A stretch of 64,000 nt of DNA from Terriglobia bacterium. GTDB lineage: Bacteria; Acidobacteriota; Terriglobia; Acidiferrales; UBA7541. The DNA is taken from positions 1 through 64,000 of the forward strand of contig JAIMAG010000004.1 of assembly GCA_023512135.1 (NCBI GenBank), read 5' to 3'. The notes beneath the pieces are model-generated. The model saw only the letters and a list, made by a program, of their open reading frames with translations. It had not been told where the DNA came from and made no database searches. This document shows, piece after piece, positions 34,463 to 42,013 of the stretch (position 1 is the stretch's first letter; every line of letters begins with the position of its first letter). Position numbers and translations under genes: made by a program.

Positions 34463-35266
34463 CTACGGAGTAAACTTCAAACTCAGCACCAGCAGCGCTG
34501 CGAACACGATCGCTTGCGCGACTTCGCTCCAACCCAGCCGGCGGATGGGGAAGCGCTTGCCCAGTTGCCAGACGAGCCCGAATGCACGCAGCATCCCCGG
34601 TGTGAACGCAAGCACGGTCAGGGTGGGCAATGCCTCGCGGGCGATGGCAGCAACCAGGAAGGCGACCAGCAGCAGGTGATATGCGATCACCGGCCAGGCG
34701 AACCGCATCCGCTCGAACCAGCTCGGGAAAGGACGATGCGCCAGCAGCCCGCGCACGCGGTACTTCACGTAAATCACTCCGCCGGCGAAAAACAGCAGAT
34801 TCAACAGCCACAGTTGCAGACCCAGCCGGTCCAGGTTCCCGCGTGCGGCAATCCAGGTGGCCGGCACCACCAGCGTGAGCAGGACCACTCCAACGAGCTC
34901 GGCCGCCAGACTCCGTTTTTCATGTATTTCCCGGTTCGGGTGCCTGGCCAGCGTCTTCTGCAGCACATAAAGCACACAAACTGCCGCGAGCAGAACCAGC
35001 AAAGTATGGCGTCGCTCGACGAAAATCAGCCAGCCGCCGGTCAGTATTCCAATGCCGAACAGCAGCAGGTGCCGTGGGTCCGCCAGCACGCGCCAGGTGC
35101 CGTGGGCATCGGCGGAGCCCCGCACCAGAAAAAGCGACACCGCAGCCAACAGTACGAGCAGTATGGAAAGATTCGTCGTGCCGACCATGAACACCGCCGT
35201 CAGATACGGCACCAGTAGAATCCCCCACGCTCCGTGTTCTGCAGGCATGCGCAACGGGTATCTCAT
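34463..35266 (-). CDS. YwiC-like multi-span membrane protein
   Basis: This roughly 267-residue protein has about eight hydrophobic segments and begins MRYPLRMPAEHGAWGILLVP, the HGAWG opening of the YwiC-like family. A cytoplasmic loop ARHPNREIHEKRSLAAELVG falls mid-protein. The family is common near anaerobic respiration genes but has no assigned function. ATG 35266 has GGAAGCGG 11 bases upstream; a GTG at 35287 is possible but lacks a site. Confidence 0.8.
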   Translation of the reverse strand: MRYPLRMPAEHGAWGILLVPYLTAVFMVGTTNLSILLVLLAAVSLFLVRGSADAHGTWRVLADPRHLLLFGIGILTGGWLIFVERRHTLLVLLAAVCVLYVLQKTLARHPNREIHEKRSLAAELVGVVLLTLVVPATWIAARGNLDRLGLQLWLLNLLFFAGGVIYVKYRVRGLLAHRPFPSWFERMRFAWPVIAYHLLLVAFLVAAIAREALPTLTVLAFTPGMLRAFGLVWQLGKRFPIRRLGWSEVAQAIVFAALLVLSLKFTP

Positions 35267-35320
35267 TGGTTCAAATACCGCTTCCACGATTGGGAGTGGG
35301 TTTGGAGCCCGCTTTCAACC

Positions 35321-35988
35321 CTCCGGGGACAGCCGACAATTGGATCGCCGCGCCCGACTTTCATTTATCCAAGTCGACTGTCCCCCGGAGAGTGAATGCG
35401 CTGCTGCGGAGCACATCTGGTTGCCCAGGTGAGGGGGTAGTATCCGCAGCCAGCGCAAGCCTGAAGAAAATCCGTGAGGAGCGGCCGCCGCTCAGGGGCA
35501 GACATGGTTGGTCTTGCCTGTGGCGTTTGCTCATCGCGCTCAGGTTTTTGGGCGTTTTAACGAAGGTGGGATTTATCGAGGGCCCCTGAGCGGCGGCGGT
35601 GTGGACCGAGCTCGCAACGGACATCGGTCGCTGCGCTCCTATCCAGGTGCTAGTTGGGTTTGGCCCCATGCAAACAGCAGTTTTCAGGAGCCGGGCAGGG
35701 GCGCCTGCCGCGATCGTTCGCGGTCCGATGAGCGGGGTCCAACGGGCCGGTTCACCATTGCCCATCGTTTGCGGGTCAACTTCGCTCATCCATCGGGTTG
35801 GGGTTACTGGCGTCACGGCTGCCCGGCTCCTAAACCATTCCTCCACGCTTATCTCGTCTCTGTTGACTGCATCATTTGCATGGGCAAGCGCCATGCCAAT
35901 CAACAAGAACCAGCCGTATGCAAAACATGCTCATTTTGTGTGGTTTGCATTTCCCCTCGAGATCGTTGCCAGTCGAGGGGAGTTTTTG
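35321..35988 (+). ncRNA. Candidate large structured RNA (novel or unrecognised)
   Basis: This stretch has no supported protein gene but many complementary segments. In order: H1 35321-35345 with 35367-35390 (about 23 pairs, one mismatch, small bulges). H2 35398-35410 with 35443-35456 (13 pairs, one bulge), enclosing an inner hairpin near 35414-35429. H3 35484-35499 with 35582-35597 (16 perfect pairs). H4 35604-35609 with 35624-35629. H5 35665-35674 with 35875-35884 (10 perfect). Nested inside H5 are H6 35686-35698 with 35819-35831 (13 perfect), H7 35708-35713 with 35718-35723, and H8 35727-35734 with 35783-35790 (8 perfect). A terminator-like hairpin follows at 35952. Nesting favours RNA over a transposon. 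It matches no RNA family I recognise; strand is set by the terminator and could be wrong. Confidence 0.5.
35952..35987 (+). terminator. Intrinsic terminator-like hairpin
   Basis: TCCCCTCGA (35952-35960) and TCGAGGGGA (35973-35981) form a perfect nine-pair stem with a 12-base loop, followed by G and TTTTT (35983-35987) on the plus strand. No plus-strand gene ends nearby, so it would terminate the candidate RNA. The loop is larger than typical. Confidence 0.5.
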
Positions 35989-36336
35989 CTGGGCGAATTG
36001 CCACAGAAGGTGGGAAATGGGTCTCACATCGCCTGAAACTGACCGAATCGAGACATGAAGGCTCAGTTTTTCCACCGCCTTCCGTAACAAAACATACCCT
36101 AGTTCGAAGCGTTCACTTTGCTCTGGAAGTAGAAAGCCTTCCGACGGGGTAAATGCCCCACACCGACCGTCATTTCTCGCAAGCCCGTTCGAAGCGGAGC
36201 ACCATTTGGACGGGAACTCATGATAACTCATTTAAAATCAATATATTAAAAGCATGCTGTAGCCTTCTCTTTCTGTTGGGATTTGGCATCAGGCATGCCC
36301 AATTCACTGTGAACTTCATGCGGTGGGACTGAAAAA
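35989..36336 (+). promoter_or_regulatory. hemA upstream region with AT-rich promoter candidate
   Basis: About 350 bases without a supported gene. A weaker hairpin (AAACTGA-TCAGTTT followed by TTT) lies near 36037-36072. The segment 36225-36255 is strongly AT-rich (TTTAAAATCAATATATTAAA) and is the best candidate promoter for hemA, giving a leader of roughly 70-90 bases. GCATGC occurs twice downstream of it, near 36253 and 36293. No riboswitch consensus was recognised. Confidence 0.4.
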
Positions 36337-37659
36337 TTGACTCGGACTCTGGCAGTCATAGGCACGAATCACCGTCACGCGTCGGTCAGCTTTCGCGAAC
36401 GCTTCAGCATGCCAGACAGTCGCCTCTTCCCGGCCTTGCAGCATCTGGTGCAGGCGGCTGGCATCGCAGAAATCGTCATTCTGAGCACCTGCAATCGAAC
36501 GGAATTCATCGTCTGGGCGGAAGATTTGGAACTTGCGAGTACTTCAGTGTTCGACTACCTGAGCCAGCAGTTCGGCTTGCAGGAAAAAGAGCGGGCATTT
36601 TTCTACAGCCTGGTCGCTGCCGATGCCGTCCGGCACATCTTCCGCGTTGCTTCCGGACTGGATTCCATGGTGGTGGGCGAGCCGGAGATTACCGGCCAAG
36701 TCAAAGCGGCCTGGACGAAGGCCCGCCAGGCGGGCACGAGTCGGAATTTTTTGGATGCAGTGTTTCAGAAAGCGCTGAGTGTGGCCAAGCGGGTGCGGTC
36801 GGAAACCGCCATCGGTCAGGCCGCGGTCTCGGTTCCGTATGCTGCGGTGCAACTGGCCCGACAGATCTTTGGCGACCTGACGGCACGCACGGTGCTCATT
36901 CTGGGAGCCGGCAAGATGAGCGAGCTGGCCGTGCGCTATTTGGTTGCCAGCGGGGCGCGGGCTGTCCGCGTGACGAACCGCACCTACGAGCACGCTGTAG
37001 CCCTCGCCACCGATCTGGGCGGAACCGCGGTGCCCTTCGAGCAGCGCTGGGCGCACCTGGCCGAAGCCGACATTGTCATCAGCTCGACCGGATGCCCCCA
37101 CTTTGTGCTCGGCGTCGAAGATTTGCAGCGCGTTCAACAGATGCGCCGCGGTCGCCCGATCTTTCTGATCGACATCGCGGTGCCACGCGATATTCACCCG
37201 GACGTGCGCCGGCTGCCCGGAGTCTTTCTCTACGATATGGATGATCTCGAGCAGGTCGTCGCACGCAACCGGTCGGAGCGACTGGCTGCGGCGGCCCAGG
37301 CGGAAACGTTCATCGCCAGGGAAGTGGAACGTTTCATGGAAAAACTCCGCGCCGTACACGTGGTGCCCACGATTGTCGCCGTGCGTCAGCGTCTGGATGA
37401 AATCAAAGCGGCGGAGCTGCACCGCTACCGCACCGAGAACGGGCCGTTAGCGATCGAGCACGAGCAGGCGATCGAAGCATTCGCCGAGCAGTTGGTCGAG
37501 CGCATTGCCAACCAGCTTGCGCGCGAGCTGAAGGTGGCAGCGCAGCAGCGTCGTGCCGATGTGCTGGCCGAAGCCGTGCGCCACCTGTTCCGGTTGCCCC
37601 GGTCCACCGCCCTGGCGGCTCAGCCAGCCGGGCACGCCCCGTTGGAGGGAAGCCGGTGA
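36337..37659 (+). CDS. hemA: Glutamyl-tRNA reductase
   Basis: This 440-residue enzyme reduces Glu-tRNA to glutamate-1-semialdehyde, the first committed step of C5-pathway heme synthesis. It starts at TTG 36337, giving MTRTLAVIGTNHRHASVSFR. The nucleophile lies in ILSTCNRTEFIVW (Cys52). Other motifs are GLDSMVVGEPEITGQVKAAW, the NADPH fold LILGAGKMSELAVRYLVASG, and FLIDIAVPRDIHPDVR. The last 100 residues form the dimerisation helix. The TTG start and weak ribosome site suggest limited expression or control. It overlaps the TPR gene by four bases. The heme demand of the downstream cytochrome island gives obvious context. Confidence 0.95.
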   Translation: MTRTLAVIGTNHRHASVSFRERFSMPDSRLFPALQHLVQAAGIAEIVILSTCNRTEFIVWAEDLELASTSVFDYLSQQFGLQEKERAFFYSLVAADAVRHIFRVASGLDSMVVGEPEITGQVKAAWTKARQAGTSRNFLDAVFQKALSVAKRVRSETAIGQAAVSVPYAAVQLARQIFGDLTARTVLILGAGKMSELAVRYLVASGARAVRVTNRTYEHAVALATDLGGTAVPFEQRWAHLAEADIVISSTGCPHFVLGVEDLQRVQQMRRGRPIFLIDIAVPRDIHPDVRRLPGVFLYDMDDLEQVVARNRSERLAAAAQAETFIAREVERFMEKLRAVHVVPTIVAVRQRLDEIKAAELHRYRTENGPLAIEHEQAIEAFAEQLVERIANQLARELKVAAQQRRADVLAEAVRHLFRLPRSTALAAQPAGHAPLEGSR

Positions 37660-39442: not shown

Positions 39443-40915
39443 CTAAGGGCCGGGTTGCGGAGATGGCTGTTCTTCTTTTTCCTCTTCGCTGTGCATCAGC
39501 CCGAATTTTTTCATCTTGTAGCGCAGGGCGTCCCGGCTGATGTCGAGCAGTCGTGCTGCATGGGTCTGGTTGCCGCCGGACTGGCGCAAGGCCAGCTCGA
39601 CCATGGCCCGTTCGATTTCTTCGAGGGAAGTACCGCCCTCGGGAATCGAAAGCGGCGGCAGCCAGCGACCGTTCGGCAGTGGCTGGCCGCCGGAGGGCGG
39701 GGAGGCGGTGTGTTCGAATGCCGTGACACCGGTATGCGGTTGCCGGACGGAAAAGGGCAGGTAGTCGGGACGCAGTACCGGCTCGTCTTCCAGAATCATG
39801 GCGCGTTCGATGGCATTCTTCAGTTCGCGCACATTCCCGGGCCAGTCGTAGTTCAGCAGCAGTCGTCGCGTCTCCGCCGTGATCCCGCGCACCGATTTCC
39901 GGAATTTGCGGTTGTAGTGTTCGATGAAAAAGTCCACCAGCGGGAGGATGTCTTCCCGGCGTTCCCGCAGCGGGGGAATGAAGATGGAGATGATGGCCAG
40001 GCGGTAGTAGAGGTCCTGCCGAAAATGGCCTTCGCGGACAGCGCGTTCCAGGTCGCGGTTCGATGCGGCAATCACGCGGACATCCACCTGAATATCGCGC
40101 ACCCCGCCGACCCGGCGGATGACCTGATCCTCGAGTACGCGCAGCAGTTTCGCCTGGAGGAACGGCGTCAGCTCGCCGATTTCGTCCAGAAACAGCGTGC
40201 CGCCATCGGCAATTTCAAACAGCCCTTTCTTCATCGCCTTGGCGTCGGTGAAGGCGCCACGTTCGTGGCCGAACAGTTCGGATTCGAGCAGCGTTTCCGG
40301 AATCGCGGAGACATTGATGGGCACGAACGGACGATCCTGCCGCGCGCTCTGGTAGTGGATGGCTTTGGCGATCAGGTCTTTTCCGGTGCCGCTTTCGCCC
40401 TGGATCAGGATGGTCGTGGCTTCGCTGGCCGCGACCTTGCGGACGAAGTGCATCAGCTCCGTCATCTTCCGGGAGACGCCGATGATGTCGTGATAGCCGG
40501 CGCGCTTGCGCACTTCGCCGCGCAGCGATTCCACTTCGCTCCGCAGCCGCGTCGCTTCGATCGCGTTCTGCAGCGTGACCTGCAGCTCGTCGAAATCGAG
40601 CGGCTTGCCGATGAAGTCGTAGGCGCCCATCTTGATGGCGGCTTTGACGTCGTCGAGCTGCGGATCGGCCGTGATCATGATCACGGCGCGGGCGTCGCCG
40701 GTTTGCTTCAGTTTTTCCAGCACGTCCAGGCCGCTCTGGTCGGGCAGGCGCACATCGAGCAGCACCACGTCCGGCTGCTCGTCGCGCACCAGACTGAGCG
40801 CCGTGCTGGCGTCCGGAGCTTCCAGAGCCTGGTAGCCCCACTCTTCGCACTTCTGCCGGAGCGACCAGCGCACCAGCTTTTCGTCATCGACAATCAGAAC
40901 TTTCGGCTGTGGCAT
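39443..40915 (-). CDS. NtrC-family sigma-54 response regulator
   Basis: This 490-residue three-domain activator has a receiver with phospho-acceptor Asp54 (VVLLDVRLPD) and an AAA+ domain with Walker A GESGTGKD (173-180) and the sigma-54 contact motif GAFTDA (220-225). A Fis-type helix-turn-helix lies at the end (NQTHAARLLDISRDALRYKM). It should activate sigma-54 promoters when phosphorylated by the kinase encoded just upstream. The 15-base spacing to that kinase indicates an operon. Target genes are not identified; I found no clear GG-N10-GC promoter that I would report. Confidence 0.93.
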   Translation of the reverse strand: MPQPKVLIVDDEKLVRWSLRQKCEEWGYQALEAPDASTALSLVRDEQPDVVLLDVRLPDQSGLDVLEKLKQTGDARAVIMITADPQLDDVKAAIKMGAYDFIGKPLDFDELQVTLQNAIEATRLRSEVESLRGEVRKRAGYHDIIGVSRKMTELMHFVRKVAASEATTILIQGESGTGKDLIAKAIHYQSARQDRPFVPINVSAIPETLLESELFGHERGAFTDAKAMKKGLFEIADGGTLFLDEIGELTPFLQAKLLRVLEDQVIRRVGGVRDIQVDVRVIAASNRDLERAVREGHFRQDLYYRLAIISIFIPPLRERREDILPLVDFFIEHYNRKFRKSVRGITAETRRLLLNYDWPGNVRELKNAIERAMILEDEPVLRPDYLPFSVRQPHTGVTAFEHTASPPSGGQPLPNGRWLPPLSIPEGGTSLEEIERAMVELALRQSGGNQTHAARLLDISRDALRYKMKKFGLMHSEEEKEEQPSPQPGP

Positions 40916-40930
40916 GCTATCCCTACTTTA

Positions 40931-42013
40931 CTATGATTGGGCGGCAGAGGCGATCTTTCGCTTGGGCAGCCAGACGCGAAATGTGCTCCCCCGGCCCACT
41001 TCGGTTTCCACCTGGATGCGGCCCCCGTGGAACTCCACGATCCGCCGCGCCAGGGAAAGTCCCAGGCCTGTCCCCTTGCCTTTCGTCGTGTAGAAAGGCT
41101 TGAAGATGTTGGGCAGGTGCTCGGGAGCGATCCCGCAACCCGAATCGGTCACGGCCACGGTGGCGTAGCGGTCTTCGTTGTGCACCTCGACGACAATGCG
41201 TCCCTCGCGGGGAATGGCCTGCAGGGCGTTCAGCAGCAAATTGAGCAGAACCTGCTGGATCCCGTCCGGGTCGTGTTCGACCATGCCGACTTCCGCCGCC
41301 GGACGAAATTCGATTTCGATCGGGCGGGAAGCGATCTGCTGCCGGGCCAGGGAAACGGCGCGTTCCGCGGTCGCGTTCAGGTCCGCCGGGCGCAACTGCA
41401 GCGGCTTCGGCCGGGCATAGTCGAGCAGTTCGTTCAGAATTTTCTGGATATGGTGGACTTCCTGTTCGACCTCTTTCAGGATTTCCCGCGTCGGGCTTCC
41501 CGGGGGCAGGTCGCGCCCGATGATCTGGATCACACCGGCGATGCCCGCCAGCGGGTTGCGAATTTCGTGCGCCAGGCCGGCGGCCAGTTCGCCGAGTGTG
41601 GCCAGGTGTTCGGCGCGGCTCATCTGCGTGCGATGCAACTGCTGGATCTGCTCGTGCGATTCGCGCAACTGACGCACCATCGCGTTGAAGCTGCGACCCA
41701 GCTCGCCGATTTCATCCCGTCGCCCGGCAAAGCCCACCGTGACGTTCAGGTCGCCTTGCTCCAGCCGGGCGATTTTCTCGCGCAGCTCGAGCAGCGGCCG
41801 ATGGACCAGCACCGCCAGCACCACCAGCAATACGGCACAGATGGCCACGGCGCCGCCCGCAGCCACGAGCAGGACCGTGCGCCGGTCCGAAGGCGGAATC
41901 GAAAGCGTCACCCAGAAAAACAGGGCGATGCCCGCCAGCAACGTTGCCGCGACCGGAAGAATCGCTTTGAATCTCCAGTTGATGTGCACGTCGAGCCCGG
42001 GTGCGGTTCTCAC
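40931..42013 (-). CDS. Membrane histidine kinase with HAMP domain (NtrB/ZraS-like)
   Basis: This 360-residue kinase has two N-terminal membrane helices (about 17-36 and 46-70) with almost no periplasmic loop, so the signal may be sensed in the membrane or cytoplasm. A HAMP domain (about 70-120) precedes the H-box LAAGLAHEIRNPLAGI (His149), N-box LLNLLLNALQAIP, and G boxes TDSGCGIAPEHL and GKGTGLGLSLARRI. It starts at GTG 42013 and pairs with the NtrC-type regulator downstream. Its start is 62 bases from that of the divergent globin-coupled kinase. Confidence 0.9.
   Translation of the reverse strand: MRTAPGLDVHINWRFKAILPVAATLLAGIALFFWVTLSIPPSDRRTVLLVAAGGAVAICAVLLVVLAVLVHRPLLELREKIARLEQGDLNVTVGFAGRRDEIGELGRSFNAMVRQLRESHEQIQQLHRTQMSRAEHLATLGELAAGLAHEIRNPLAGIAGVIQIIGRDLPPGSPTREILKEVEQEVHHIQKILNELLDYARPKPLQLRPADLNATAERAVSLARQQIASRPIEIEFRPAAEVGMVEHDPDGIQQVLLNLLLNALQAIPREGRIVVEVHNEDRYATVAVTDSGCGIAPEHLPNIFKPFYTTKGKGTGLGLSLARRIVEFHGGRIQVETEVGRGSTFRVWLPKRKIASAAQS

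Follow-up and report, generated by a model that had tools for sequence, protein, structure and literature searches.

A structured RNA can persist from the transcript of a protein gene whose first use has faded, as in the IS200 5'tnpA RNA of Salmonella (PMC12594629). Long structured 5' leaders and riboswitch-type regulators are folded too; they lie on the same strand as one gene family, directly upstream of it. A protein gene forms the third point of reference here: ahbD, which encodes the radical-SAM heme b synthase AhbD (TIGR04545; PMC10452713). The locus described below shares features with all three. It lies in a 64-kb stretch of DNA that we analysed as a whole (the window), in the gap between two divergent genes that start at 35287 and 36337:

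34463..35287, minus strand: ywiC, YwiC-like membrane protein (PF14256, Pfam E 2.4e-10), the gene downstream of the putative leader
36337..37659, plus strand: hemA, glutamyl-tRNA reductase, the divergent neighbour (TIGR01035, E 1.4e-124)

The gap holds a conserved folded RNA of ~555 nt on the minus strand, upstream of ywiC. No Rfam 15 covariance model matched the window at its gathering score (the best sub-threshold match, hya, reached 24.7 bits vs 56.8 needed) and none matched the homologous loci, so that a known Rfam family was set aside, in agreement with the initial annotation, which had recognised no family. It is a previously unlisted structured RNA of unusual origin. Our literature search found no paper on YwiC-like proteins and none on an RNA of the ywiC–hemA gap. 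We also considered a replication origin or terminus and rejected it, seeing no skew switch at 4-kb resolution. The window's own genome contains a second hemA-like stretch (G000:C13:29248-30555, L040) with 35% identity to hemA and one in-frame TGA.

Homologues of the element were found in three genera. Five loci are complete, namely the window, three from one genus (G002, G014 and G024, genus g2) and G023 (genus g13); a sixth, from the genus of the window (G001), is cut by a contig end. The related DNA in g2 and g13, which belong to the same family, is 65–68% identical. A search with R1, a covariance model of two domains, recovered the element in 6 of the 89 genomes of the family, at one copy per genome. 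Under strict filters, model searches of ~390 genomes of the class yielded no further match besides a sister-family genome, G025, and ~395 genomes of the phylum yielded no match. Among 84,980 named genomes, a pattern search gave 27 matches; the hairpin was present only in four known acidobacterial contigs, and the others were chance matches. A dispersed repeat was rejected, as the HF motif (see below) is single-copy per genome and other matches of its 14-mer lack the hairpin.

The RNA is a chain of helical domains, whose order was taken from alignments of low quality across genera in the 5' half:

35680..35841, minus strand: HA, a long-range helix around ~120 nt (arms 35819-35834 and 35683-35698; 95% of cells paired)
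35604..35629, minus strand: HC, a predicted hairpin (GACCGA...UCGGUC) taken from single-sequence folds and the sequences
35478..35604, minus strand: HD, a helix of 16–18 bp (arms 35582-35597 and 35484-35499), homologous to ahbD codons CRATAQ...LSGGE
35394..35464, minus strand: HE, an interrupted helix ending GCG/CGC (7/15 pairs with two-sided changes in seven genomes including G025)
35314..35393, minus strand: HF, a helix of about 27–30 bp (8/22 main-stem pairs with two-sided changes)

In the place of HC, the g2 genomes have a CCCGGAGUC...GGCUUCGGGG hairpin instead (single-sequence folds), and a large helix next to HC, HB, is present in g2 and G023 and missing in the window. The HD helix encloses a near-invariant ACGCCCAAAA(U)CCUGAGCGCGAU. 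Its 5' arm sequence GCUCAGG can pair with either the HD 3' arm or an invariant internal CCUGAGC, and because each of the five genomes allows the two alternatives, HD may be bistable. HF has a conserved apical part, GGAU...ACGGGCGCGGCGAUCC, and the same motif lies inside ahbD of G025. Between 35314 and 35604, an invariant CGCCC in the apical part of HD is complementary to an invariant GGGCG in that of HF. This complementarity makes a loop–loop contact between HD and HF a possible candidate.

The initial annotation had rested on complementary helices in the gap, and sequence comparison bore out the inverted repeats at all four sites listed: 35310-35337/35373-35400 (75% of 28 paired), 35484-35499/35582-35597 (16/16), 35683-35698/35819-35834 (15/16) and 35665-35674/35875-35884 (10/10). 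The last is the helix described as enclosing others; its repeat is real, and because it overlaps a promoter-like motif at 35882-35899 it probably does not belong to the RNA. Only two places in the window have a perfect helix of 13 or more pairs whose arms are 60–130 bases apart, and both are in the gap. Another such helix was seen in genome G039 (L127:2414-2505).

Several observations place the RNA on the minus strand. On either strand the predicted fold outscored dinucleotide shuffles, and the minus strand was the stronger (z −5.8 vs −4.2 on the plus strand). For one alignment of the 300-nt core, the consensus energy was −114.4 kcal/mol on the minus strand vs −96.6 on the plus; among the 60 pairs that the two structures share, the minus reading has 14 G-U cells vs 4 A-C. 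Finally, hemA adjoins the far side of the element in the window, G014 and G024, and a TPR gene takes that side in G002 and G023, with no adjacent hemA detected (2/5 complete loci). On wobble asymmetry, consensus energy and these loci we rejected a plus-strand RNA or hemA leader; the plus-strand reading first proposed, an RNA upstream of hemA that ends near 35987, is not supported, and the element tracks ywiC, not hemA. The hairpin followed by T5 that was to have ended such an RNA does exist at about 35952-35987 (CCCCTCGA...TCGAGGGG). It belongs to the plus-strand reading and lies upstream of the minus-strand promoter, and with a loop of >10 nt it was not counted by our terminator scan. We saw no such hairpin in the homologous gaps of other genera; it is possibly a plus-strand terminator or an activator site.

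Covariation from few sequences needs care (PMC11234323), and the following pair counts ignore relatedness: the five complete sequences represent three genera, and a single genus contributes three of them. Changes on both sides were found in 5/12 pairs of HA (0–1 with slid partners) and in 19/81 pairs of HD to HF (2–6 with slid partners), together 24/93 compensatory pairs and far above the slid-partner controls. When the more distant G025 was included, 17/47 pairs of HE-HF had changed on both sides, against 3–6 with slid partners. Pairs were thus kept through two-sided changes beyond the controls, if in few sequences, and a structured RNA on the minus strand is very probable.

Upstream of the RNA and of hemA we found two sequences that resemble sigma-54 promoters:

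35882..35899, minus strand: sigma-54-like −24/−12 motif TTGGCATGGCGCTTGCCC (GG-N10-GC), TTGGCAY-N6-TGCCC in all five complete loci
36283..36298, plus strand: second sigma-54-like motif TTGGCATCAGGCATGC, facing hemA (pattern match)

The first motif, scored against the consensus, stands 615–676 nt before the ywiC start region in five of the five complete loci. Over ~103 kb of loci, the motif's regular expression matched 10 times, as one divergent pair per locus that flanks the RNA, in which one member points to the RNA and the other to hemA or the TPR gene; in the window, 2 matches were observed vs 0.58 expected. An NtrC-type activator with a sigma-54 interaction domain, and a kinase, are encoded at 39443-42013 of the window. 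GG-N10-GC at a constant place and an activator in the genome argue for sigma-54-type transcription, which we consider probable. The motif at 35882..35899 is likely to be the promoter of the RNA, with a predicted start near 35870, and hemA may also be under sigma-54 control.

In all homologous loci, ywiC lies directly downstream of the element on the same strand, which is the position of a cis-regulatory leader of a constant gene. HF ends ~27 nt before the ywiC start in the window and about 27–77 nt before it across the complete loci, and because the terminator scan found none between the RNA and ywiC, we infer a leader of ~555 nt. Within the family, the six RNA-carrying genomes and no others have a close ywiC; one more genome has a remote match only. 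From this position and co-occurrence, cis control of ywiC is plausible at slightly less than even odds, and we advance it tentatively. The same observations weigh against a separate regulatory small RNA, in which the minus-strand RNA would act in trans or be cut from the ywiC message. The size, which is large for a leader, would suit such an RNA, its conserved apical sequences in HD and HF (CGCCC and GGGCG) could bind a partner, and 5'tnpA offers a precedent; still, with no terminator found before ywiC, a short distance to it in every complete locus and the same six genomes for both, we judge this reading unlikely.

The RNA is under selection as a nucleic acid, because identity in HC-HD and HE-HF (64–77% between genera, 87–93% within g2) exceeds that at the four-fold sites of ywiC (43–55% and 59–66%); HD to HF have kept more of their sequence than synonymous sites in the adjacent gene have. 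The stretch had been called gene-free, which holds only in part, as an open minus-strand frame of 181 aa runs from 35906 to 35361 and is open in all homologues as well. Counted from a start codon, the feature is as follows:

35361..35816, minus strand: stop-free frame of 151 aa in the ahbD frame, with a GTG start and its stop in the HF apical part

The ahbD frame is stop-free for 172–196 codons from the promoter to HF in 5/5 genomes, and all five have an in-frame ATG or GTG at a shared place after the HA 5' arm. In shuffles, an open frame of this kind had a probability of 0.0067 for the window, 0.0097 for G024 and 0.054 for G023, and every indel that separates G024 from G023 ahead of HE has a length divisible by three. 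These features would suit a small, fast-evolving protein gene derived from ahbD, with the RNA structure secondary. The peptide nevertheless appears free of constraint: dN/dS in the open frame is 0.8–1.3, where coding predicts a value clearly below 1, BLOSUM scores are no higher in the ahbD frame than in the others, substitutions in the part from HA to HD are spread evenly across codon positions, and an NCBIfam search with the ORF gave no match. From HE on the frame differs between lineages, and because of this some excess of substitutions at one codon position of HE-HF within g2 is not readily explained by coding. A protein gene is therefore quite improbable on these counts. An open frame with dN/dS near 1 would fit a leader that ribosomes can pass and whose peptide is free, and the frame at 35361..35816 is a possible candidate for such a translated leader.

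The origin of the RNA was revealed by the match of R1 in G025, which lies inside ahbD on the sense strand. Built without G025, R1 matched HE-HF in the linker of that gene at 54.8 bits (E 8e-8); R3, a model that includes G025, scored 102.8 bits against the same linker. R2, a model of HD built without any ahbD sequence, matched the radical-SAM core codons of ahbD in five genomes with an intact gene (E 1.2e-7 to 2.6e-5). HD is homologous to the ahbD codons around CRATAQ...LSGGEP with only 3-base indels (two 3-base gaps over 123 nt), and in frame, AAVQEPAVFPTLPTPKILSAIKQIRSMDPPETFLGGG of G024 takes the position of ATAQELSSPDDLPTPNVLDLIQQICRYSHPILILSGG in G025. Translated searches (tblastn) of the gaps against ahbD loci returned mostly low-complexity noise, and we used only the match of G023 to G025 over HD (E 0.007). 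Within the one ahbD gene of G025, HD is followed by HE-HF in the order of the relic; HD and HE are ~590 nt apart there and ~20 nt apart in the relic. The interdomain linker of AhbD in G025 (L049:6700-7010) has ~85 aa vs about 30–45 in relatives, and the HE-HF hairpins lie in frame within the added segment (KIGVNLNTGAAIPPS).

The HD helix also exists in genes that still encode the enzyme. A 15-pair helix between the RATAQE and ILSGGE codons occurs in five of five intact genes from two sister families (G025-G028 and G030, the last with one compensated change; G029, which has a distant paralogue only, was left out). It is absent from the more distant ahbD of G031, G035 and G039, which have at most 8 pairs. 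Across ten sequences, 14/15 pairs are standard throughout and the remaining pair is broken in a single sequence; the helix has 13 G-U cells and zero A-C. The arm codons of ahbD are 92.5% identical at same-residue positions vs 57% for the gene, a level reached by 87/7949 other block pairs. AhbD itself has been lost in the window lineage: translations of the relic lack the CxxxCxxC motif, the relic falls short of a functional ahbD as judged by CxxxCxxC, the SPASM cysteines and full length, and a TIGR04545 search of 25 genomes from the family of the window found nothing at 1e-60. We thus hold with high confidence that the RNA is partly ahbD-derived.

Descent alone would also be expected of a plain ahbD pseudogene in which the hairpins are remnants of the former mRNA, and the 3-base indels of HD, the loss of CxxxCxxC and most of ahbD, and the helix already in the intact gene are all compatible with it. 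Compensatory changes that arose among the relic copies, conservation of HD-HF above the four-fold sites of ywiC and the lack of any build-up of stops make it very improbable. We also gave up, as the sole explanation, an element that had inserted into the ahbD gene of G025, because HD proved to be ahbD itself. A palindromic mobile element (MITE- or REP-like) inserted beside ywiC and, in G025, into ahbD would place HE-HF at two kinds of locus, but one copy per genome, phage and plasmid searches without a match and the order of HD and HE-HF in one gene, as ahbD descent predicts, leave it barely credible, and with the covariation they uphold the earlier preference for a folded RNA over a transposon.

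We therefore favour, with a probability of roughly 0.55, a structured 5' leader of ywiC that is of sigma-54 type, possibly translated and partly exapted from ahbD mRNA. Transcription would begin from the motif at 35882-35899 on the minus strand and read through the leader into ywiC. HD stems from the mRNA of ahbD and HE-HF from an ahbD linker; after the enzyme was lost, the hairpins remained selected and, on this reading, were taken into the ywiC leader. In the most likely mode of action, ribosomes would enter at the NTG in HA, and their passage up to the stop in the HF apical part would melt or free helices and so set ywiC output. A wider scenario is that the ahbD message of the order carries a functional RNA element that outlived the enzyme and was rebuilt, beside the heme gene hemA, into a sigma-54-driven translated leader with an open frame, a free peptide and ribosome passage coupled to ywiC expression; we regard it as conceivable but rather doubtful.

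The locus bears on the origin of new structured RNAs in bacteria, as the path from coding mRNA to structured RNA is traceable: the same helix is found in intact sister-family genes and, compensated, in an enzyme-less descendant. It suggests that ahbD messages may hold RNA structure of their own, and that ywiC, from a little-studied family, gains a regulatory context of sigma-54 and heme genes.

Large ornate RNAs (OLE, GOLLD, ROOL and HEARO) resemble the ywiC RNA in size range and in their many helices. The size class proposed at the outset thus holds, and a simple new origin does not, because one domain descends from ahbD; the ywiC RNA further differs from them in matching no covariance model and in its association with ywiC. 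With long structured 5' leaders it shares its place directly upstream of one gene family on the same strand, several helices with conserved apical sequence and no terminator found before the gene, a likeness to riboswitch-type regulators in position and structure; it differs in having no Rfam match, in its restriction to few acidobacterial genera and in coming partly from a protein gene. From the AhbD heme b synthase gene it retains HD, as codons CRATAQ to LSGGEP with the shared 15-pair helix, and HE-HF, as the interdomain linker of one ahbD, and it is without CxxxCxxC, the SPASM part, ~570 nt between HD and HE, and amino-acid constraint. IS200 5'tnpA is likewise a structured RNA that outlasted the first use of its gene; it derives from a transposase and works in trans, whereas the ywiC RNA comes from a heme-biosynthesis gene and may act in cis.
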